24,939 nt of DNA from a virus: positions 1-24,939 of the IMG/VR virus record IMGVR_UViG_3300033143_004758; one strand, 5' to 3'. Position numbers and translations under genes: made by a program. The notes beneath the pieces are model-generated. The model was not told where the DNA came from. It was given only the letters and a program-made list of their open reading frames with translations, and ran no database searches. Positions 6,509 through 24,939 of this stretch are shown here, in pieces (position 1 is the stretch's first letter; each line of letters opens with the position of its first letter).

Positions 6509-7108
6509 TTATATATTAATTATTTCACATATAATATCAATTTCTTTTTTTGTTTTTGCTTTTTTTAACTTCATTTCACATTGTTTTAAACTTATATACA
6601 TTGATGATGTAGGATTAATCATATCATGTGCATCTAAATAATCTTCAAGTGCGAGAATAAGCAATTTATCTCCAGTATTAACAATTTCAAGATATTTTTG
6701 TTCTCTATTATCATTAGTAATATAATATTCATTTGCAGCTAAAATTGAAAATGACTGTATTAATTTAAAAAATGTTAATCCACCTATTGAAGCAAGATAA
6801 TATGTAAAAATATTATTAAGTTTACATTTTGCTTTGTTTTTATATTGTTCTAAATCATTTTCAATTTTAACAGAAAAATCTTTAAAATCAACATAACCAA
6901 TTTTTTCTTCTGTTAATTTTGATTTATAAATAGTAATGATATTACCATCAGTTAATATTTTTTTTAAATATATTGAAATTTCATCATTAAAATAAAAATA
7001 TTTTTCAATAGGTTTTGCAAATAAAGTTTCATTACTTTGAACATTTATTATTTGATATTCATCATTATTAATTGTTTTTACTTCTGTATAAAATAAAGGG
7101 TTTGACAT
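6509..7108 (-). CDS. Protein of unknown function (199 aa)
   Basis: 199 residues from the ATG at 7108, selected because AAGGAG lies about 9 bases upstream; an ATG 8 codons earlier has no ribosome binding site. No family recognised. The first half looks beta-rich (TEVKTINNDEYQIINVQS, KIGYVDFKDFSVKI). The second half is helical, with one moderately hydrophobic stretch FTYYLASIGGLTFFKLIQ that is not clearly a membrane segment, and ends in a Lys-rich helix. It has its own strong promoter with a large inverted repeat, and lies just upstream of the gp55-like gene, so it may be an early protein or a regulator. That is inference only. Confidence 0.7.
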   Translation of the reverse strand: MSNPLFYTEVKTINNDEYQIINVQSNETLFAKPIEKYFYFNDEISIYLKKILTDGNIITIYKSKLTEEKIGYVDFKDFSVKIENDLEQYKNKAKCKLNNIFTYYLASIGGLTFFKLIQSFSILAANEYYITNDNREQKYLEIVNTGDKLLILALEDYLDAHDMINPTSSMYISLKQCEMKLKKAKTKKEIDIICEIINI

Positions 7109-7132
7109 TTTACTTTTCTCCTTTTTAAACAT

Positions 7133-7182: not shown

Positions 7183-7650
7183 TTAATTACCACATATAGT
7201 AATAGGTGGTTCAGTATAATCACATGTACAATCAACATTACAAGTACAATCAACATTACAAGTACAGTTATAATCACACTTACATTTATTTAAAGCTTCA
7301 TTTATACCACTTTGTAAATGGTCAGAACGAACTTTAGTTATATCTTCTCCAACAGCATAACTTAATGTTATAATATTAGTAGACCAACCACTTTGGTACA
7401 AAGTATTTATATGAGTTTTAAGGTCATTAAAATCATCAGATTCAATATCATCACTTATATTTGGTGATAATAATCCAGATGGTCCTCCACCAAGTCTTGT
7501 ATATCCAAGTTCTACAGCTGCTATTAATTCGTTAACATGAGATGCTCTAATTATATCACCAATACTTATTGATGTAAAACTATATGAATTAGAACATGAT
7601 GCTATATTATTTGTGCACTCAATATTATTACAGTATCCAACACACGCCAT
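7183..7650 (-). CDS. Cysteine-rich protein, candidate substrate of the adjacent radical SAM enzymes
   Basis: 155 residues with 13 cysteines. Four lie at the N-terminus (3, 7, 12, 19) and nine at the C-terminus (123, 125, 129, 131, 135, 137, 141, 143, 153), the latter as CxC blocks three residues apart: CKCDYN, CTCNVD twice, CTCDYT, then ITICGN. The middle has no cysteine. It contains a segment IRASHVNELIAAVE (34-47) and a weaker second copy VRSDHLQSGINEAL, a His-x-x-Glu-Leu type motif I have seen in repeated form in phage structural and secreted proteins. The ATG at 7650 follows GGAGG and overlaps the radical SAM stop (TAATG), so production is coupled to the enzyme. It could be a ribosomally made peptide precursor, a metal-binding tip protein, or a disulfide-rich virion protein. 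No signal peptide is evident. Confidence 0.8.
   Translation of the reverse strand: MACVGYCNNIECTNNIASCSNSYSFTSISIGDIIRASHVNELIAAVELGYTRLGGGPSGLLSPNISDDIESDDFNDLKTHINTLYQSGWSTNIITLSYAVGEDITKVRSDHLQSGINEALNKCKCDYNCTCNVDCTCNVDCTCDYTEPPITICGN
7226..7261. repeat. 18-bp tandem repeat encoding CTCNVD units
   Basis: The forward unit GTACAATCAACATTACAA occurs twice without mismatch (7226-7243, 7244-7261), followed by a decayed third copy. It encodes the hexapeptide repeat of the cysteine-rich tail. The exact identity at DNA level suggests recent expansion. Confidence 0.85.
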
Positions 7651-8828
7651 TATTTTTCCTCCTTTATTACAGAAGCCAAAGCTCTATGAATTTTTCCAAT
7701 TATTTTATAATATTTACATAATACTGGTTGAGATGTATAATCATAAAATTTATCATAAAAATTATTTTTTTGACTATTAATATATTTTACAATATTACAT
7801 CTTAAACAAATAGTTGATTCACATGTCTGACATTCATTTATATTTATTTCACTTTTAAACTTATAAAAATTATCTTTTATGTTATTTATAAGTTCTTTAT
7901 TTCTTATATTATAAAAACAAAAATCTTTTTTGTTTTTTGATGACATTGCACCATGACAATAATATACTTTTCCATTTATATCTATACATGACATTCCACG
8001 ACCCACACCACAATTTAATTTTTCCCCAGAATTAAACCATGATAATAAAAATCTATTATTTTTTTTAAAAAAATCTAATTCCTTTATTGATATATCAATA
8101 AGTGATTTTTCTAAATCATCAACATATGATTGATTATCAATTACATTAAAATAATCTAATGTAGGTGAGTATCCAATTTCTTTACCATATTTATAATATA
8201 AATCACAAAAATCACCCCATACTTCTGGCATATGTTTAATACCATCATATGTTAACGTTGCTTTTATATTAAATAAAATACCTTCATTATGTAATATTTC
8301 AAAAGATTTTCTAACTATTGTTGAAGTTGGTTTTCCTTGTTTATCTAATCTATAAATATCATGTAACGGTAAACCATCATAAGAAACTTGTACTTTTATT
8401 TTTTCTGTATTTCCTACACATTTCTTTTTATTAAGTTCTTTAAGTATGGGTAAAATTTTATTTATTCTTGAACCATTTGTATATATAAAAAAATTTACTC
8501 TTTCATTATCTTTAAACTCATCTGTAATTATTTTTAATAATGGAATATTTAATGTAGGTTCACCACCCCAAAAATCTATCTTTAAACCTCTAAATGTTAG
8601 TTTGAACCATTTATTATTAAGAATAGAATATATTGTTTTTATTAAAATATCTGGATTTTTACTTAAAAAGTTATTTCTAATTTTAGTATGGTCACCTTCA
8701 AAACAATAAGAACAATTAAAATTACATTTATCAGTTAAATTAATTTCAAGACTATATGTACCCATACTAGATTTTTTTTGATTAATAATTTCAATAACAT
8801 CTTCTTTAAAGTTTAATTTTTTTTGCAT
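7650..8828 (-). CDS. Radical SAM/SPASM peptide-modifying enzyme, adjacent to the Cys-rich protein
   Basis: 392 residues. The radical SAM [4Fe-4S] motif CxxxCxxC is CNFNCSYC (C35, C39, C42). GGEP (88-91) is the SAM-binding motif of beta strand 2, and YTNGS (116-120) follows. The C-terminal third is a SPASM domain for auxiliary iron-sulfur clusters: cysteines at 273, 281 and 291 in CGVGRGMSCIDINGKVYYC, then CQTCESTICLRC (333, 336, 341, 344) and C371. Length and layout match anaerobic sulfatase-maturase/RiPP-maturase relatives, which modify peptide side chains through a 5'-deoxyadenosyl radical. The start overlaps the preceding 76-residue gene by 16 bases with a weak ribosome binding site, and the stop overlaps the Cys-rich gene start. 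The substrate is not proven; the coupled Cys-rich protein is the best candidate. Confidence 0.9.
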   Translation of the reverse strand: MQKKLNFKEDVIEIINQKKSSMGTYSLEINLTDKCNFNCSYCFEGDHTKIRNNFLSKNPDILIKTIYSILNNKWFKLTFRGLKIDFWGGEPTLNIPLLKIITDEFKDNERVNFFIYTNGSRINKILPILKELNKKKCVGNTEKIKVQVSYDGLPLHDIYRLDKQGKPTSTIVRKSFEILHNEGILFNIKATLTYDGIKHMPEVWGDFCDLYYKYGKEIGYSPTLDYFNVIDNQSYVDDLEKSLIDISIKELDFFKKNNRFLLSWFNSGEKLNCGVGRGMSCIDINGKVYYCHGAMSSKNKKDFCFYNIRNKELINNIKDNFYKFKSEININECQTCESTICLRCNIVKYINSQKNNFYDKFYDYTSQPVLCKYYKIIGKIHRALASVIKEEK

Positions 8829-9043
8829 TTATCAAACTCATTTATTATTTTTTCTTTAATTACAATTTTTTTTGCATATTCATTGATTTCACTTATTATT
8901 TTTTCGTCAACTACAATTTTTTCTAAATATTCTTTGCTTTTTGCTAAAAGATATACTGCAAATTTTTTATCTATTTTTTCAAAATGCATAGCTGCATTAT
9001 AAAGATTTAAAACACCTTGATGTATTGAATAATTTTTATCCAT
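8813..9043 (-). CDS. Small helical protein between the two radical SAM genes (76 aa)
   Basis: 76 residues, no family recognised. It is highly charged and predicted helical throughout (GVLNLYNAAMHFEKIDKK, then repeated (V/I)xEKIIxE segments). A single cysteine lies in the terminal FDKCKKN. GAGGGG lies 6 bases before the ATG at 9043; the 5' end overlaps the upstream radical SAM gene by 8 bases and the 3' end overlaps the next by 16. This tight coupling suggests a partner in the same pathway. It does not look like the winged-helix peptide-recognition domain (RRE) that often accompanies such enzymes, as it seems to lack that fold's beta strands. Confidence 0.7.
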   Translation of the reverse strand: MDKNYSIHQGVLNLYNAAMHFEKIDKKFAVYLLAKSKEYLEKIVVDEKIISEINEYAKKIVIKEKIINEFDKCKKN

Positions 9044-10079
9044 TATTTCCCCTCACATTATTATAAATATTATATACTTCTGTCATCCAAAATTTATTAC
9101 TTTTAAATTTATTGTTTATTTCTATTATTTTATCTGATAATATTTGATATATTTTACATAAATTACTAGATAAACCATTTTTTATTTCTTGTTGCAAACA
9201 CATATAATTACAATATGAATTTATACTACATATATCACAATTTTTACTAAATGTATTCGATAATTTATTGATTTTTTTAATATTTTTTTCAACATAATTA
9301 TTTCCATCATAAAGAACATATGAATCATTTGTTAAAAATCTAGCACATGGATATACTTTACCATCTATTGAAAATGCTACACCATTATTACCAGCGAAAC
9401 ATCTTGTTTTATTCATATCATGCAAAGTACTTTCTATCATTAGTGATAAGTTATACTTTATTAATCCTGGTAAATAATTTTTACTCTTAGCAAGAAATTT
9501 AATATAAGATTTTATTAATTTATTTAATTCTATTTTAAATATTTCAACATCTTTATCTTCCCATATATTATCTCTTACAATTTTAAAATTAGGTAAAATA
9601 TTAAAATGCTCTATCATATACTCATAATTTTTTGACATTTCAATATTTTTTGGAGTAACACATACATTTACATTATTAACTAATTTTTTTATTAAATTTA
9701 ATTTTTTAATATATAATTCTAATTTTTCACTCCACAATCCATCAAATGATATGCTAGTATTAATATTATTTTTTTTTATATAATCAACTTTATAATTATC
9801 TAAAAGGGTTCCATTTGTTAAAATATTTAAGGTACAATTTTTATCATTTTTTACATATTCATTTATATATTCAATTAAATTCCAATTAAGAAGTGGTTCG
9901 CCTCCAAATAAATCTAAATTATATTTTTGTTGATTATATTGATTTAAAAAATAAGGTAAGTTTTTATGATAGTGATGTTTAAATGTATCTTTGGTCATAA
10001 AAATATCATTATTATTCATATAACAATAATCACAATGTAAATTACATTTTTCAGTAATAACAAAACAAGCAGTAAACAT
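9036..10079 (-). CDS. Radical SAM/SPASM enzyme, first gene of the cassette
   Basis: 347 residues from the ATG at 10079, chosen because AAGGAGAG lies about 6 bases upstream. The frame stays open 27 codons further back, but that stretch is the GNVT repeat of the fibre gene read in another frame (MVMLLVMLL). CxxxCxxC is CNLHCDYC (C12, C16, C19), very near the N-terminus; FGGEP is at 58-62 and LTNGT follows. The SPASM part has CFAGNNGVAFSIDGKVYPC, then CDICSINSYCNYMC and a last C in NLCKIYQ. It is clearly diverged from the second radical SAM enzyme, so the two probably catalyse distinct steps or act on distinct substrates. It follows the short fibre gene by 13 bases, placing the cassette in the tail-fibre transcription unit. 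Confidence 0.9.
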   Translation of the reverse strand: MFTACFVITEKCNLHCDYCYMNNNDIFMTKDTFKHHYHKNLPYFLNQYNQQKYNLDLFGGEPLLNWNLIEYINEYVKNDKNCTLNILTNGTLLDNYKVDYIKKNNINTSISFDGLWSEKLELYIKKLNLIKKLVNNVNVCVTPKNIEMSKNYEYMIEHFNILPNFKIVRDNIWEDKDVEIFKIELNKLIKSYIKFLAKSKNYLPGLIKYNLSLMIESTLHDMNKTRCFAGNNGVAFSIDGKVYPCARFLTNDSYVLYDGNNYVEKNIKKINKLSNTFSKNCDICSINSYCNYMCLQQEIKNGLSSNLCKIYQILSDKIIEINNKFKSNKFWMTEVYNIYNNVRGNNG

Positions 10080-10092
10080 ATTAACTCTCCTT

Positions 10093-10446
10093 TTAACTAT
10101 ATTGAGCAACTGTTGCTGTTCCAGTAACATTACCAGTAACATTACCAGTAACATTACCAATTAAATTTCCTCTAAATGTTACAGCATATATATTTTTAAA
10201 TCTTAAAACTGGTGTTCCTATACTATGTGTATCATCTATATCTGGTGATGAGTCACCGTCAGTTTCAACAAATTGACCAAAAGTTGAGTCAAGAACTCTT
10301 ACCCATGCAGAATCAGTACCAAAATAAAATGACTCTACGTCTTCAATATACACCAATCTACGTTCATCACTAGATGCCCAAGATGGTAATGTAGTTAGTG
10401 ATTCTGCAAAAAATGCACCTTTCATATCTATTCCATGATAATCCAT
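10093..10446 (-). CDS. Short tail-fibre-type protein with GNVT repeats
   Basis: 117 residues. The N-terminal part has ERRLVYIEDVESFYFGTD, a pattern common in phage fibre proteins. It is followed by IGTPVLRFKNIYAVTFRG and then GNLIGNVTGNVTGNVTGT, the collagen-like or trimeric-strand repeat often placed near fibre tips. The ATG at 10446 overlaps the preceding stop (TAATG) and follows GGAGG. It ends at VAQYS soon after the repeats, whereas relatives usually continue into a distal receptor-binding or chaperone domain. It may therefore be a shortened fibre or a small trimeric tip, with the radical SAM cassette placed just behind it. Confidence 0.75.
   Translation of the reverse strand: MDYHGIDMKGAFFAESLTTLPSWASSDERRLVYIEDVESFYFGTDSAWVRVLDSTFGQFVETDGDSSPDIDDTHSIGTPVLRFKNIYAVTFRGNLIGNVTGNVTGNVTGTATVAQYS
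10121..10156. repeat. Three perfect 12-bp tandem repeats in the fibre gene
   Basis: The forward unit CCAGTAACATTA occurs three times in a row, with a decayed fourth copy after. On the minus strand it encodes repeated Gly-Asn-Val-Thr. Confidence 0.9.
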
Positions 10447-12411: not shown

Positions 12412-14241
12412 TTATTCTGTTTTTTCAATTCTATAAAACATTCTTAAATTTATATTTGCTGGTTTAAATAATGGACTACATAGAGTATAAAACATTATAT
12501 CGTTATCTTCATTAAATAAACCAATTTCTGTTATTGTTAAATCTGTTATTGAACTTATAACAAATTCAATTATATAATGTGTTCCGCTATCATTTTCATA
12601 TACGCTTTCATATGCACCACTTAAAGTAATTGATTGTATATCATTAGCTCCAGCAGGATTATACTCTTGTTGTATACCATTTCCAATTTTCCAATATCCT
12701 AAGTTTTCGCTAATACCAATACCAGTTATATCATCTGGATTTGTTTCTATAATAAATGTTTTTGGTAAATAAATAAAATTAGCTGAACCAACTGTTGATA
12801 TTGGAAAAGCAATAGTAGCTGAGTTAGGAGATGTTAAAGTAATATTTTCTGGACTTATAACATCACCAGCGTCATCAAAGCATTCAATTATTAAACCACC
12901 AGCATCTAGGTTATGGTTTATGTACCATGTGGCTGGTATAGTATTAGTCATAACCCAATCAAATTCAAATTTTCCTGTTACAACTGTTGATGTAACTAGA
13001 ACTGTATATTCTGTATCATTCCAATTAAATCCAGTTTCTATTGTATTCCAAGATTGATCTGTTGTTGTTGAATCTGAATATACATGTACACCATCTTCTC
13101 CAACATCTATTACTTGTTGACAATAACCACCTGTTGTTTCTGCTGTATATTCGGATGTATCTCTTATTTCATAAGGTGGTGACCAACTACCCATCCAATT
13201 ATTATTAGGAGGAGTAAATCCATATGTACTTATATCCCATATTGCATTATTCCATGAAATATAACTACTTGCTTGTTGTATTGGATTATATACAACTAAA
13301 ACTTTACCTAAACCTGTACTAAAATCAACTCTCCACATACGATGACTATGTACAGTTCTATAATAAATTTCACCATTTAATTCTACTATTCTTGAAATTG
13401 GTGATGTACTACCAGTACTATGAACAATTAGATTTGATGTACCATCAAATGCATAAATAGATGTAGCATATTGATGATTATATACTACACCATTTGCTTG
13501 TGCTATATCTTTACTATCACTATGATCATAATATACAACTGTACCAGTAGTAAGCCAAGTGTTACCCATTGTTTCATCCCATTTTAAACATTGATTAGAT
13601 GAACCATAAAGTTCATTATTATATATAAATAATCTTTCAACAGTATTATAACTACTATATTGATCAGCTGCTAAATCCCAATCATCAACATCATTCCATC
13701 TTAATAAATATCCACCTTTTGTGTCTCCCCAATTAGTACATCCATATAATCTATTTTTAAATACTATTAAATCATATATATATGAACAATTATCATATTT
13801 ACCAGCTTTTAATGTCCATGCACTAACTTCATCCCATTCATAAAGTATTCCATCTGATATAGTATAAATTTTATTATTATATTCAACTAAAGCATATAGT
13901 CTATCAGTACCAGCAGAAGTAGGTGTACTTGCCATTTCTGTCCAACTACCAGCACCTGATGTACCATTCCATTTTAGCATTCTACCACCAGAAACAATAG
14001 GTGAACTAAACCAACCAGTACCAATATACAATTCATTATTATAAATCATTTTTGATATAATACCTTCATCTAATAACATTTGATTTGGATAATAATATAC
14101 ATTCCAACTACCATTATTACCAGTACTAGGTAAATAAGATGTTACTGTTGAGTATCCATCATTTAATTCTGTCATTTCAGTAAGATTATTAAATTTAACT
14201 AATGCTCCAGATGGTAATCCAGCAGAACCAGTAATAGTCAT
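12412..14241 (-). CDS. Beta-propeller tail protein, probably the C-terminal part of the giant tail protein
   Basis: 609 residues from the ATG at 14241. Residues about 60-330 contain repeats of the form L-x-x-YNN-x-(I/L)Y ... LxxW(N/D) (YNNKIYTISDGILYEWDE, YNNELYGSSNQCLKWDE), a Kelch-like propeller. Near 437 is a WYINHNL module with IIECFDD and P. The C-terminus has LTITEIGLFNEDNDIMFY, typical of phage fibre proteins. The ATG has only a weak AGG upstream, and the same frame stays open with protein-like codons back to about 14375 (WNKASKHSQFDTLITYED). It therefore seems to be the continuation of the 1649-residue gene after a +1 frameshift near 14351-14375. Confidence 0.75.
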   Translation of the reverse strand: MTITGSAGLPSGALVKFNNLTEMTELNDGYSTVTSYLPSTGNNGSWNVYYYPNQMLLDEGIISKMIYNNELYIGTGWFSSPIVSGGRMLKWNGTSGAGSWTEMASTPTSAGTDRLYALVEYNNKIYTISDGILYEWDEVSAWTLKAGKYDNCSYIYDLIVFKNRLYGCTNWGDTKGGYLLRWNDVDDWDLAADQYSSYNTVERLFIYNNELYGSSNQCLKWDETMGNTWLTTGTVVYYDHSDSKDIAQANGVVYNHQYATSIYAFDGTSNLIVHSTGSTSPISRIVELNGEIYYRTVHSHRMWRVDFSTGLGKVLVVYNPIQQASSYISWNNAIWDISTYGFTPPNNNWMGSWSPPYEIRDTSEYTAETTGGYCQQVIDVGEDGVHVYSDSTTTDQSWNTIETGFNWNDTEYTVLVTSTVVTGKFEFDWVMTNTIPATWYINHNLDAGGLIIECFDDAGDVISPENITLTSPNSATIAFPISTVGSANFIYLPKTFIIETNPDDITGIGISENLGYWKIGNGIQQEYNPAGANDIQSITLSGAYESVYENDSGTHYIIEFVISSITDLTITEIGLFNEDNDIMFYTLCSPLFKPANINLRMFYRIEKTE

Positions 14242-14350
14242 AAGACCTGGGTCTAATCCTGTAGTGTCAAGTAATCTTAATTGATGAGTACGACGTTGTT
14301 GACTGTCTTCATAAGTAATTAATGTATCAAATTGTGAATGTTTTGAGGCT

Positions 14351-17300
14351 TTATTCCATGCTGTCCACGCTGTGTATTCTTATTTCATCAAATGTTTGTT
14401 CTACATCATACATGTCGTGACCAATTACAAATCCTGTACCTGTCATTTCATCATCCATAGCAACATAACTACCTGTTTCACTAGTTGAACTTGTAGCATC
14501 AACACCATCAATATATATTTTTAATCCAGAAGCATTACTACTACCATCATATGTTGCAATTTGGTGTATAAATTGTCCAGCATATCCAGATAATGTAGCT
14601 GTATAAGCATCAAGAGAAGCACTACCACCAACATCATTCAATTTAAAATTAGCACCAAATGGTGATCTTGAATCAAATTGATATGATGAATCTTCATATA
14701 CTGCTTCTGTTCCAGCATCTACTACTTCTGATTTTGATAGTAATTCAATAGAAAATGGGTCATCATATGTATCATTACCAAATATAAGTTCACTTTGTAA
14801 ACCAACACCAATTGTTTCATCATCTGCTCCAGTAAATAAATAAGCTTTACCAATTAATCCATCAACATAATTACTACTATCAGCCCCAGCGCTTGGTGTA
14901 CCATGTAATTCATTTGTTGTAGAATCATATATTACACCACCAGCAGGATCTTGTCCCATATGCCAAACACCTACAAAGTTATCAGACCAAACATTTTTAG
15001 CCTCAGCGCTTCCTATATCACCAATATAATTATTATCACTTGCTGATAAATTCCAAGTCAAAAGAAATTCTGTATCAGTTGTACTTGATATTTCTGGAAC
15101 TTTAACCCATAAAATAGCTGTACCGGCTGAAGGTGTCCACTCACCTCTTTCACAAAAATATTCAACTGTTCCATCAACATTTGTTACTTTTAATTTTTCT
15201 TTTTTAGCATCAGTATCAAGAATGTCAAATAATCTTCCAGTATCATAATCACTAATACCTGCTGATGTTGATATATTTACCATTACAGGAAAATCAGTAA
15301 GTGTTTCATCTATTAATGAACTATCTATTGTTACTTTAATAGCTTGATTATCAGGTGTAGTATATGAACTTAAATCAATTCCTTCAACTCTACAAAAAGA
15401 ACCATCTTCTTCATAAGCACGACCTGCTTCATCTATTTCAAATGAAGCGTTATCAGTATTCAATAGTAATCCATTATTATAAGTATAATCATCATGTTCC
15501 ATATCAAGTCTTATACCTGTAATAGTATTATCAATCCAATCAGGTTCACTACTCATATCCCATTCAATTACTTGCCAACCATAATTAGCATCACCATTAT
15601 TTACAATTTCTTTATAAAATAATTCAGACTCATTATGTAGTGGTGTTCTCCAATAAATTCTACCAGTCCAAGAATTTGAAGCATCTGTTACTTTCACTCT
15701 AGCTGTTACTTCTATATTTTCACCACCATCAAAACTTAAATCAACTACTCTAATTTCAGGTTCAGCTGTTTCTCCATATACCCAATTAGTAGGAGTCATA
15801 AGCATTGTGTCATCACTAGTTGCATAGATGTCTGCATTTGTTGCTGTCCATCCTTCTAAATCACCATCATTAAAATTCCATCTATTATCAGCACCATCAA
15901 CAGTATTCCATGTAAAATCAATTCTTCTTACAGGTGCTGTTCCTCTATAAGCATCAGCTTTATTCCATGAAGCTACCATAATATCATCATTAGTAGGATT
16001 TTGAGAAACAGGAACCATTTGATTTCTAACATAATCATTATTATAATATTGAGCAATAATACCAAATGCTCCTGATGTAGAAAGACTATGATTAACTGTC
16101 CAATCAAATTCAGTATATCCGCTTATTGTAGATGTAAGTGTAAAATATTTAAGATAAGAACCCGCAGATGTGTATTCAGAATATGTGGCATGAAGATTAT
16201 TAAATTCATCAATTTTTAATGAAAATCCCATATTATCAACACCTGAAGGTGTTAAGCTTATAAGAGCATTTGACCATCCAGTCCATGCGTTAGTATCAAA
16301 TTTTCCATATTTTAATTGACTACCATTAACTGATTCATAAATTGTATGAAGATTATCAGAATTATCAATACCAAGAGAAGTATAATTAAAATTTGATCCA
16401 ACATTATCATCAATAGTATATGTAACAAAAGAATCATTTATAGTAGTAATATGTTCATATTCATTAGAAATATTTTTATAAACTACATGTACTTTATCAG
16501 AACTATCAAGAACAATAGAAGTATATGCGTTTCCACTAGTTCCTGCTGCAGTTACTGTCCATGAACTAGTGCTACCTTCAGCAAGTTTTAATTCACCAAT
16601 ATAATCATCAATATAACTCATATATAACTTATTAGAACTATCAATAGTTACTGACATATCTTTATAATTACCACTTGTAGATGTATCTATTGTATCACAA
16701 CTCCATAAACCACCATCTTTAATAGCATGTTTTAAATAACCAATACCAGCTGTTTCAGAAGAATATATAACATGAGGATTATTTAAACTATCAATAATTA
16801 AAACAACATGTCCATTTATTCCATCATTTCCAACTATTACTGGTACCCATAATCCCGTTGAATTATTAGCATATAATATATCATTATTATCATAATTGTA
16901 AGCTATGTGTGATATACCTAAATTATCTATATCTATTTTTATAGTATTATTTCCATCACAGTCATCAACTTCTTCTGATAACCATACATCAGATACCTTA
17001 GTTGCATATTTAACTTTATCAGTTCCATAATTATAATATGATATATATGGAACAGATTCACTATTAACATCTATAAAAGTACTCCCACTTATAGTTCCAG
17101 ATGATACTGTTTCAGAAACTACACTAACATTTAATACAGGTGGTGTTCTTTGTGTTGTTTCAGTATGTAAATAATCGTAATTATCTCTAATACCAACTAC
17201 ATATGCCTCACCTCTAACAGCTGTACTAAAAGTTAAAGTCATTCTATTTTCATTGTTTATTTGTATATCTTTTGGCCAAATTAATTTTCTATTATTATCA

Positions 17301-19300
17301 TAACATTGAACAAGACAGTTTCTTGTTCCTAAATCATGTTGAGCTATCCAATTATCTCCAGATATTAATTGTTTATGTGTGTATGCAGTGGAACCAGTAT
17401 CTGTGCCTGATGGCGCTACTGGTGTTGCAGCAGAAAGAAAATTACTTCCTGTAAATTGAGTATTTAAATAAGCATTTTTATGTTCATCATAAAGTGAAAC
17501 ATACTCACCTGCTTCATCCATTTTACTAGTTGGTGCTATAAGTTGTTCATAATGAACGTATTTACTTACTGGTTTTGTATAATTCCAATATCTTATAAGT
17601 TCATCCATTAAATATTTATTAATAATATAATTATCACCTACTGGCTCACTTGATAAATCTATTTCTATTTTATAATGAGGAGTTAATACTAAACTATTTG
17701 TTTTATTAACACCAGTAGCACTAGTAGCACCAGTGGCTAAATCATAAACATCACCAGACCAATTTGTTGAACCTGAAGTAGATAACGTATTTAATACAAA
17801 TAAATAATTGAATGCTCCATTTGATCCACTACTACCTAATAGACTAAGAGTAACATATTCAAGAAGACTTGATCTATCTTCATTATCAAATATATATAAA
17901 TTTAAATCTCCACCAATTCTTTCAATTCCCAAATAATAATCTGTTGCAACTGAATATCCAGTTGTTGAATATGATGATTGAACAGTAGAACCATTATTAT
18001 ATCCTTCACTTACTCTAAATTGATATGCACCACTATACCATTCAAGAGAAACACCTAACCAGTTACTTGTTGAATAATTATTCCATGAAACATTTTGGTC
18101 ACCAAGACCCCATATATATAATCCAGCACCAGATGAAGAATCACTTGATAAATTTGTTTTTACACAATGAAGAAAATCACCTGAAGGCGTTGTACTTGCT
18201 AATGATAAGTATAAATCATCACTTGATTTATCAAAATCATTAATTGTTAATTTGACTCTATTAGCAACTGTTAAAACATTACCTGTATCTACTCCTTCAA
18301 AATTATAATAATTTTTACTAGCACCACAAAGCCAAACATTTTCTAAACAATCACCAGTTGGAGCAACATCAGTATAAGTAGGATAACCAGATGGATTATA
18401 TTGTGAATAATAATCTATACCGGCGCCGCCTTCTGCTTGTGTATTATAGTATTCAAGTATATGATGATCATTTTCAAAAATAGGAATATCACTTAATTCA
18501 GATGAACACCATTCAGCCCACCTTTCATAAATATTTAATTTGTTTTCAGTATTACCAAGTAATAACTTAAATATTATAAATATTGAAGCGTAATCACCTT
18601 TTCTTTTTAAGAAATAAATTATAGTATCAACCCATTCCCTTAAGTTACTTTCAGGTAAATCTTCATCAATTTCAATACCATAATCAAGGGCTATAAGATT
18701 AAGAAATCGTATATCAATTTCTTTTGGGTCTAACAAAGCCCATAAATTTTTTGTCATATTATATACTGAATGATGAACTTGATCGAAATAAACTTTTAGA
18801 AATTCTTCTAACTTAGTTGTTCTATTATTTTCAGGTAATGCTTTAGTCATATAGTCTTTCATTCCTTCAAAAACCACACTATATGAATCTGTTTCATTAG
18901 GAACTTCGTATATTTTACCAAAATATATATATGTTTTGTTAGTATTAACATCATCTCTATAAAGAGCTTCATTAACATTTAACCAATCATGGAAAAAAGC
19001 ATCTTTTCTAAAATACATTTCATTACCAACTGTAAAATCACCAACAGCTAAAGAATTATCACTTAAAAGACCACTATATGTAAATTTAAAATTATTTCCG
19101 CTTATTTCTGTTATTCTAAATTTATATCCAACAAGTTCACCAGTACTTCTTTTTTCATATAAATGTGTTACTACACCACCTTTAGCTACTATTGTTTTAC
19201 GTGGTCCAATAAGATAAGAATTTGCATCACCACTTGATTCTTTTATTATTCCAAAATATTCATTAAGAATATTGTAACTGCTTTCACTAAATTTTCCCAT
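14351..19300 (-). CDS. Giant tail protein: gpI-type baseplate head with jelly-roll, propeller, DUF2341 and LamG-like regions
   Basis: 1649 residues. Residues 160-260 (DIRFLNLIALDYGIEIDE, REWVDTIIYFLKRKGDYASI) match the P2 gpI-type tail protein that joins baseplate to fibres; position after gp6 agrees with T4 gp7. About 330-525 is a jelly-roll region; 540-635 ends in a gpI-like segment (KPVSKYVHYEQLIAPTSK). About 660-720 and 1070-1120 are H(D/S)L...Q-Y modules. About 728-1053 is a propeller of ID-S-N-LH-x-Y repeats. About 1138-1290 looks carbohydrate-binding (WNFNDGDLEGW), 1315-1430 is DUF2341-like (LTDFPVMVNIS), and 1438-1649 LamG-like (VWSDNFVGVWHMG, FDEIRIHSV). The stop falls where LamG relatives continue, and an adjacent frame carries on. 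GAGGAAAC precedes the ATG at 19300. It probably binds host surface glycans. Confidence 0.82.
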   Translation of the reverse strand: MGKFSESSYNILNEYFGIIKESSGDANSYLIGPRKTIVAKGGVVTHLYEKRSTGELVGYKFRITEISGNNFKFTYSGLLSDNSLAVGDFTVGNEMYFRKDAFFHDWLNVNEALYRDDVNTNKTYIYFGKIYEVPNETDSYSVVFEGMKDYMTKALPENNRTTKLEEFLKVYFDQVHHSVYNMTKNLWALLDPKEIDIRFLNLIALDYGIEIDEDLPESNLREWVDTIIYFLKRKGDYASIFIIFKLLLGNTENKLNIYERWAEWCSSELSDIPIFENDHHILEYYNTQAEGGAGIDYYSQYNPSGYPTYTDVAPTGDCLENVWLCGASKNYYNFEGVDTGNVLTVANRVKLTINDFDKSSDDLYLSLASTTPSGDFLHCVKTNLSSDSSSGAGLYIWGLGDQNVSWNNYSTSNWLGVSLEWYSGAYQFRVSEGYNNGSTVQSSYSTTGYSVATDYYLGIERIGGDLNLYIFDNEDRSSLLEYVTLSLLGSSGSNGAFNYLFVLNTLSTSGSTNWSGDVYDLATGATSATGVNKTNSLVLTPHYKIEIDLSSEPVGDNYIINKYLMDELIRYWNYTKPVSKYVHYEQLIAPTSKMDEAGEYVSLYDEHKNAYLNTQFTGSNFLSAATPVAPSGTDTGSTAYTHKQLISGDNWIAQHDLGTRNCLVQCYDNNRKLIWPKDIQINNENRMTLTFSTAVRGEAYVVGIRDNYDYLHTETTQRTPPVLNVSVVSETVSSGTISGSTFIDVNSESVPYISYYNYGTDKVKYATKVSDVWLSEEVDDCDGNNTIKIDIDNLGISHIAYNYDNNDILYANNSTGLWVPVIVGNDGINGHVVLIIDSLNNPHVIYSSETAGIGYLKHAIKDGGLWSCDTIDTSTSGNYKDMSVTIDSSNKLYMSYIDDYIGELKLAEGSTSSWTVTAAGTSGNAYTSIVLDSSDKVHVVYKNISNEYEHITTINDSFVTYTIDDNVGSNFNYTSLGIDNSDNLHTIYESVNGSQLKYGKFDTNAWTGWSNALISLTPSGVDNMGFSLKIDEFNNLHATYSEYTSAGSYLKYFTLTSTISGYTEFDWTVNHSLSTSGAFGIIAQYYNNDYVRNQMVPVSQNPTNDDIMVASWNKADAYRGTAPVRRIDFTWNTVDGADNRWNFNDGDLEGWTATNADIYATSDDTMLMTPTNWVYGETAEPEIRVVDLSFDGGENIEVTARVKVTDASNSWTGRIYWRTPLHNESELFYKEIVNNGDANYGWQVIEWDMSSEPDWIDNTITGIRLDMEHDDYTYNNGLLLNTDNASFEIDEAGRAYEEDGSFCRVEGIDLSSYTTPDNQAIKVTIDSSLIDETLTDFPVMVNISTSAGISDYDTGRLFDILDTDAKKEKLKVTNVDGTVEYFCERGEWTPSAGTAILWVKVPEISSTTDTEFLLTWNLSASDNNYIGDIGSAEAKNVWSDNFVGVWHMGQDPAGGVIYDSTTNELHGTPSAGADSSNYVDGLIGKAYLFTGADDETIGVGLQSELIFGNDTYDDPFSIELLSKSEVVDAGTEAVYEDSSYQFDSRSPFGANFKLNDVGGSASLDAYTATLSGYAGQFIHQIATYDGSSNASGLKIYIDGVDATSSTSETGSYVAMDDEMTGTGFVIGHDMYDVEQTFDEIRIHSVDSME

Positions 19301-24698: not shown

Positions 24699-24896
24699 TT
24701 AACAACAATCATGCCCTAAATTAGTATTATAAACTTTATGTCCGTTAGAGCATGTATGTTTCTTTTCATCTTTAAAAAATTCTACTAAGTCACCACAATC
24801 AGGACATTTAAGTTCATATATACTATTTGCAGTCCATTTTGAAGTATTACTAATACCACAACCATCACCACATCCCCAATCACCATCTACTTTCAT
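24699..24896 (-). CDS. Small zinc-ribbon-like protein
   Basis: 65 residues from the ATG at 24896, preferred because AAGGAGAG lies just upstream; a GTG seven codons earlier is the alternative. Cysteines are at WGCGDGCG, then KCPDCGDLVEFFKDEKKHTC and a terminal CC, with NGHKVYN between. The central block resembles the zinc/iron-binding ribbon 'CP-CG--VEFFKDE---C--G-KV' found in small proteins of anaerobic bacteria. The first CxxxC and the last CC add further potential ligands. It precedes the spike gene by 9 bases, so it may be a virion or assembly component, or a metal/redox protein; the sequence alone does not say which. Confidence 0.72.
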   Translation of the reverse strand: MKVDGDWGCGDGCGISNTSKWTANSIYELKCPDCGDLVEFFKDEKKHTCSNGHKVYNTNLGHDCC

Positions 24897-24906
24897 TTTT
24901 CTCTCC

Positions 24907-24939
24907 TTATAACTCACTAAGTTGTTCTAAGTCTTTTAT
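24907..24939 (-). CDS. 3' end of an upstream gene, cut by the window edge
   Basis: The minus strand reads in one frame as IKDLEQLSEL followed by TAA at 24909-24907. The stop sits just before the AAGGAG site of the zinc-ribbon gene, as at other gene junctions here. Only ten residues are visible, so no identity can be given. Confidence 0.45.
   Translation of the reverse strand: MKDLEQLSEL

Follow-up and report, generated by a model that had tools for sequence, protein, structure and literature searches.

The window analysed here is a virus fragment of 24,939 bases, which its UvsX-like recombinase, baseplate wedge and hub genes and late sigma factor assign to a T4-like myovirus. Directly after a short fibre-like gene, it carries a cassette that encodes two radical SAM/SPASM enzymes (rSAM-A and rSAM-B), a small protein, a protein with a dense Cys array and the product of a further conserved gene (gene D):

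10093..10446, minus strand: short fibre-like gene immediately preceding the cassette; weak PHROG tail fibre matches (best E = 4.6 × 10−5)
9036..10079, minus strand: rSAM-A, radical SAM/SPASM enzyme, 347 aa; PF04055 match (E = 1.1 × 10−11), 20-member family, orthologue CP220 gp023 (33%)
8813..9043, minus strand: small protein, 76 aa, probably helical; assigned by its place in the cassette
7650..8828, minus strand: rSAM-B, radical SAM/SPASM enzyme, 392 aa; PF04055 match (E = 2 × 10−9), 22-member family, orthologue CP220 gp136 (30%)
7183..7650, minus strand: Cys-array protein, 155 aa with 13 Cys, a putative substrate at the fibre tip; family alignment, left-out profile, predicted three-helix core
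7594..7644, minus strand: N-terminal Cys segment of the Cys-array protein (C3, C7, C12, C19); sequence and alignment
7222..7284, minus strand: C-terminal Cys array (residues 123-143, CKCDYNCTCNVDCTCNVDCTC), proposed modification site; sequence and array catalogue
6509..7132, minus strand: gene D, 207 aa, follows the array gene and is conserved; family alignment, 71 bits against a profile that excludes the window

The first-pass annotation had described four overlapping genes 13 bases after a fibre gene; all four are present on the minus strand with their coordinates confirmed, and the cassette has a fifth member, gene D, that had been missed. rSAM-A starts at an ATG at position 10079 that is preceded by AAAAGGAG and separated by 13 bases from the end of the fibre-like gene; a longer, mechanically called ORF of 374 aa, with a TTG start inside the fibre gene, is unnecessary. 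The 76-aa gene overlaps rSAM-A by 8 bases, rSAM-B overlaps the 76-aa gene by 16 bases, and the Cys gene, whose ATG is preceded by AAAGGAGG, overlaps rSAM-B by 1 base.

Elsewhere in the window, the long fibre gene is split (12412-14241 and 14351-19300), whereas it is a single ORF in the 99.9% identical contig L001; compared to L001 1600-1830, window positions 14242-14350 lack an 8-base and a longer stretch, perhaps through an assembly error. Beside the baseplate hub gene, positions 24699-24917 encode a 72-aa protein with 7 Cys, possibly of the zinc-ribbon type.

The enzymes and their small companions

Both enzymes exceed the curated cut-off of PF04055, which, together with their conserved cysteines, bears out the earlier description of two CxxxCxxC radical SAM proteins with SPASM cysteines. 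In alignments of 20 rSAM-A and 22 rSAM-B relatives, the radical SAM cysteines are conserved at 90% or more in rSAM-A (C12/16/19) and invariant in rSAM-B (C35/39/42), and seven cysteines of the SPASM region (criterion: CX9-15GX4C, CX2CX5CX3C, C) are conserved in both families. The SPASM set comprises C227-G240-C245, C281/284/290/294 (canonical) and C308 in rSAM-A, and C273-G286-C291, C333/336/341/344 (a CX2CX4CX2C variant) and C371 in rSAM-B. Profiles from which the window was excluded detected rSAM-A at 294 bits and rSAM-B at 378 bits.

PF04055 itself apart, both enzymes fall below every curated family-level cut-off: the nearest NCBIfam model to each is PapB (NF047865), at 133.7 bits for rSAM-A and 77.3 bits for rSAM-B vs. 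a cut-off of 340. The solved chain nearest to both profiles was 5wgg (E = 2.7 × 10−37 and E = 2.8 × 10−27), which we take to be CteB, a SCIFF thioether maturase. These sequence comparisons place both enzymes closest to the peptide maturases that form thioethers (SCIFF, PapB). An N-terminal RRE leader-binding domain is absent from the sequences and family alignments of both, and there is no room for one because the radical SAM motif starts at residue 12 in rSAM-A and at residue 35 in rSAM-B.

Gene D has only weak fold matches, and its relatives among annotated phages, identified by tblastn, are all in Campylobacter phages; it is possibly an assembly chaperone. Most cassettes have a small ORF where the window has the 76-aa gene. 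Homology among these small proteins was considered and rejected, given that the initial profile contained the sequences it found and that the left-out profile test fails for the window and for CP220; the small protein is thus conserved in position only. Having a single Cys, it was also rejected as a peptide substrate.

Recurrence of the enzymes with Cys arrays

We searched IMG/VR for DNA encoding the motif CNYCxCxCNYCxC, without consulting the enzymes, and identified 42 contigs. Searches of the whole records showed that 35 of these carry a strong rSAM-A relative and 34 a strong rSAM-B relative. A strong A or B relative is absent from six of the 42, all of them fragments; the array contigs outside the A/B carriers are 13-79 kb in length, and L048 among them has a third radical SAM gene beside the array. 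Because several IMG/VR records are near copies of each other, lineages were counted too. At 70% identity, rSAM-B relatives form 25 groups, of which 22 have a dense Cys array within 6 kb. Two further lineages, those of L057 and L095, contain the rSAM-B proteins that come nearest to that of the window (38-40%); their cassettes encode sparser array proteins, which brings the total to 24 of 25 lineages with an array partner, and the single array-less lineage (L069/L070/L119) is represented by fragments. The first-pass annotation had called for such a neighbourhood survey, and had named relatives in which the enzymes never occur with the Cys-rich protein as evidence against its reading; both the contig and the lineage counts support the coupling, and the pairing of enzyme and array genes is strong.

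Against a background of 50,697 annotated phage records, rSAM-B relatives were found in 29, from Campylobacter phages and Erwinia/Cronobacter jumbo phages, and the members inspected (CP220, CPt10, CP21 and IBB_35; phiEaH2 and CR5) have Cys-repeat genes nearby. S74-motif contigs, used as a control, numbered only 11, five of them cassette carriers. Single-protein searches for close relatives returned only one fragment, L001 (~99% identical). Among 84,980 prokaryotic genomes, the CNYC motif was found once, and the 3-kb contig that holds it bears genes for B, the array protein and a third enzyme (C); the array form is thus essentially viral. Array proteins of a CDCNFCPC type are encoded in L028, L029, L031 and L050, fragments with no A or B; in L118 this type adjoins B.

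Profile placement resolved at least three gene orders: A-small-(C)-B-array-D in the window, L033, L037, L043, L059-L065, L072, L075 and L088; B-A-C-small-array-D in most of L015-L055; and B-small-C-A-array-D in L074. In CP220 the set is dispersed but kept (D, gp015; A, gp023; C, gp099; B, gp136; array protein, gp140), with gp015 matching the gene D profile at 90 bits and gp099 the enzyme C profile at 157 bits, each lying outside the profile that it matched. The possibility that CP220 has the enzymes without a Cys protein was rejected: gp140, with 19 CxC, is encoded 2.2 kb from the rSAM-B gene, and its array lies inside the protein (roughly residues 290-345 of 534). The earlier remark that CP220-type Campylobacter phages carry radical SAM genes was correct; the CP220 paper calls their large number highly unusual, and reports a 21-bp repeat inside one gene that it does not connect to them (PMC2853527).

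Several other features were noted in these phages and contigs. rSAM-B lies in two overlapping ORFs, with a break after 115 aa, in two unrelated phages (L071 10004-11174, which is CP21, and L074 10001-11166); compared with CP220, CP21 has one extra base in a T run. The break may stem from sequencing error, decay or frameshifting. A UDP-glucose-dehydrogenase-like gene is often found just upstream of the cassette (L005 14033-14803, L015 9358-10086, L026 175-918, L055 7249-7992, L059 8044-8790, L061 8034-8771) and also near CP220 gp020-gp023, and may be linked to fibre glycosylation. Proteins built of CxxC pentad repeats (NCKNCINCSNCKNC...), which start with MKLIDGYY and have no CxC, are likewise encoded in Campylobacter phages (L005 24206-24577, L007 38106-38531, L090 17828-19265).

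The enzymes could instead have a different target, be it DNA, a metabolite, a different fibre or the host surface, and travel together with the array in a tail-fibre exchange module. This would agree with the metabolic or DNA-protecting/modifying role that the CP220 and IBB_35 papers give to phage radical SAM genes (PMC2853527, PMC3322345), and with the location of many cassettes in islands with additional radical SAM genes. However, Cys-array genes accompany the enzymes in all but one of the lineages, in varied gene orders, and are kept where the set is dispersed in CP220. Unrelated phage SPASM enzymes also adjoin Cys-dense ORFs: of 56 more viral loci whose radical SAM enzymes do not belong to the B family, a Cys-dense ORF lies no more than 2 kb away on the same strand in 33 and on the opposite strand in 4, with arrays of quite different kinds. 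A 2-kb count underestimates the B family, whose arrays may be sparse or lie beyond that distance; the lineage count above uses 6 kb. On this evidence, we consider a different target improbable.

The array protein and its fibre-type relatives

The Cys-array protein has 13 Cys in 155 aa, compared to 1.03% Cys in the other same-strand ORFs of at least 100 aa (binomial P(≥13) ~ 1 × 10−8). A profile that excludes the window detects it at 60 bits, and its core is still detected by the left-out profile when the array is removed (E = 5 × 10−9, 36 bits). In the AlphaFold model, a three-helix core is predicted and the array is disordered; no fold match at E ≤ 0.001 was obtained for the models of this protein and of gene D, nor did tblastn with the Cys protein against annotated phages yield a match. 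Type-I relatives begin MAC.GH...C..H in the alignment. Across 208 CxCxxCx units, the spacers are N/D, N (97%), Y/F and T/P, and Asn, Asp and Thr make up most of the residues that separate the cysteines.

Of 72 catalogued array ORFs, 27, including that of the window, stop within 12 residues past the last CxC, 15 run into a full S74 region, 17 have only the first S74 strand (SDxRLKxxIxY) and then stop, and 13 end otherwise. Pfam identifies a whole Peptidase_S74 domain in L034, L058, L106 and L110, and a split domain that resumes in the next ORF, from model position 15-20, in L043, L057 and L095; an S74 domain is absent from the window's own Cys protein. Collagen repeats precede the array in L166. 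In L132 (2230-3459), L135 (2837-3982) and L138 (3805-4800), the array is followed by a Hint-like sequence whose weak Pfam match stays under the cut-off, possibly another self-cleaving end. S74 chaperones trimerise fibres and then cleave themselves off at a conserved Ser; the array would then be the mature end in all of these forms, CP220 gp140 being the exception.

Where S74 is split, the array ORF ends after SDxRLKxxIxY and the remaining domain is a separate ORF (L026 4721-7551, L033 11842-12986, L042 2323-3298, L043 5417-6321, L057 9187-9980, L095 3315-4300). In L026, one such ORF is common to four array proteins, as if the chaperone acted in trans.

Among the products suggested in the first-pass annotation, the modified adhesin tip is favoured, as the arrays of relatives close tail-fibre-type proteins with Peptidase_S74 chaperones, and the array protein is probably located in the virion. 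A toxin or competitor peptide finds no support. Two SPASM enzymes with a small Cys-rich protein do resemble a RiPP cluster, and the Cys protein might then give rise to an antimicrobial peptide that is secreted or released at lysis; we regard this as very improbable, given the folded cores, S74 chaperones or collagen repeats of the relatives, the position of the cassette after fibre genes, and a locus that showed neither a leader/core layout nor a protease or exporter.

Proposed tip maturation and known systems

We consider it likely that the cassette matures a tail-fibre tip, with the enzymes modifying the Cys-rich end of a virion fibre protein. The Cys-array protein would be a fibre or tip protein whose N-terminal part docks on the fibre or baseplate, whose helical core folds or oligomerises, and whose C-terminal array forms the exposed end. 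The two enzymes, joined in many relatives by enzyme C, would modify the array post-translationally, before assembly, and gene D and the small protein would act as adaptors or assembly chaperones that replace the enzymes' missing leader-binding domain. The earlier proposal of a modified peptide or virion protein is supported to this extent, although we infer both the modification itself and the role of the array as substrate from sequence.

Thioether crosslinking is our best guess for the chemistry because the Asn/Asp/Thr spacers of the array match known ranthionine acceptors: Asp, Asn and Thr are acceptors in the ranthionine bonds of freyrasin, NxxcA and CteA, and QhpD forms Cys-Asp and Cys-Glu thioethers within a protein (PMC8326336). 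Provided that the fibre-tip explanation holds, we lean by analogy, if only slightly, towards ranthionine-type crosslinks from Cys sulphur to the side chains of adjacent Asn, Asp or Thr. The array might instead be a metal- or iron-sulphur-binding fibre tip, whose metal centre the enzymes build or of which they modify only the surrounding residues. The tips of T4 and P2 have His-x-His iron sites, and metal ligation would fit the CxC and CxxC spacing, the Cys/His-rich type-I N-terminus and an array that is unstructured in a ligand-free model. It seems nevertheless rather unlikely, as the families to which the enzymes are closest install thioethers or other modifications in peptides, and the conserved Asn and Thr among the cysteines are unneeded for metal binding.

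Secreted peptides and a small number of enzymes are the known targets of radical SAM/SPASM maturation. We see about an even chance that radical-SAM crosslinks at fibre-protein ends are a general virion maturation strategy, in which RiPP-like chemistry builds virus particles, and that many tailed phages carry dedicated SPASM enzymes beside unrelated arrays (CNCNYCTC, CICNSDCSC, CSGxCSG, CTCNNTCYG, NCNCNCNC). The findings suggest that phages chemically tailor the tips that touch bacteria, of which we found no report in open-access papers; searches of that literature for phage radical SAM with tail fibres, SPASM or RiPP likewise yielded nothing that ties these enzymes to fibres. If true, fibre-tip maturation would be a new way of making a viral adhesin, would explain the many radical SAM genes of some phages, and would offer a source of leader-independent enzymes for modifying whole proteins.

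Among phages, CP220, CPt10 and IBB_35 (phrog_1802) share true A and B relatives, the array protein gp140 (phrog_26958) and gene D with the window, but their genes are dispersed and the published reading makes no link to fibres; the IBB_35 orthologue of gp140 is AEF56812.1. The Erwinia phage phiEaH2 and Cronobacter phage CR5, both jumbo phages, have two neighbouring enzyme genes that lie a short distance downstream of a virion structural gene and two Cys-repeat ORFs; their arrays, however, are of the CSGxCSG type, the ORFs are mostly unannotated, and the enzymes are only distantly related to A and B. In these two phages (L009 3120-3913, L010 3142-3947), the Cys-repeat ORFs (CSGCSGxC) overlap each other before the radical SAM pair, and one of them matches phrog_6085, neither being annotated as Cys-repeat. 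Peptidase_S74 tail fibres resemble most array proteins of the relatives, in which a whole or split S74 comes right after the array, whereas ordinary S74 fibres have neither a Cys array nor an enzyme cassette, and the window's protein has no S74.

Among cellular systems, the ranthipeptide/SCIFF maturases (PapB, NF047865; CteB/TIGR03974) share the radical SAM and SPASM fold, the auxiliary-cluster cysteines and a Cys-rich partner with Asp/Asn/Thr acceptors. The cassette enzymes differ from them in having no N-terminal RRE, in scoring below the family cut-offs, in being virus-borne, in having a fibre-type partner rather than a leader-core peptide, and in numbering two or three per partner. QhpD, the thioether maturase of a quinohemoprotein amine dehydrogenase subunit, is likewise a SPASM enzyme that crosslinks a protein and not a secreted peptide, but it is cellular and serves a periplasmic oxidase subunit, and the cassette enzymes score far below the cut-off of its family (TIGR03906).
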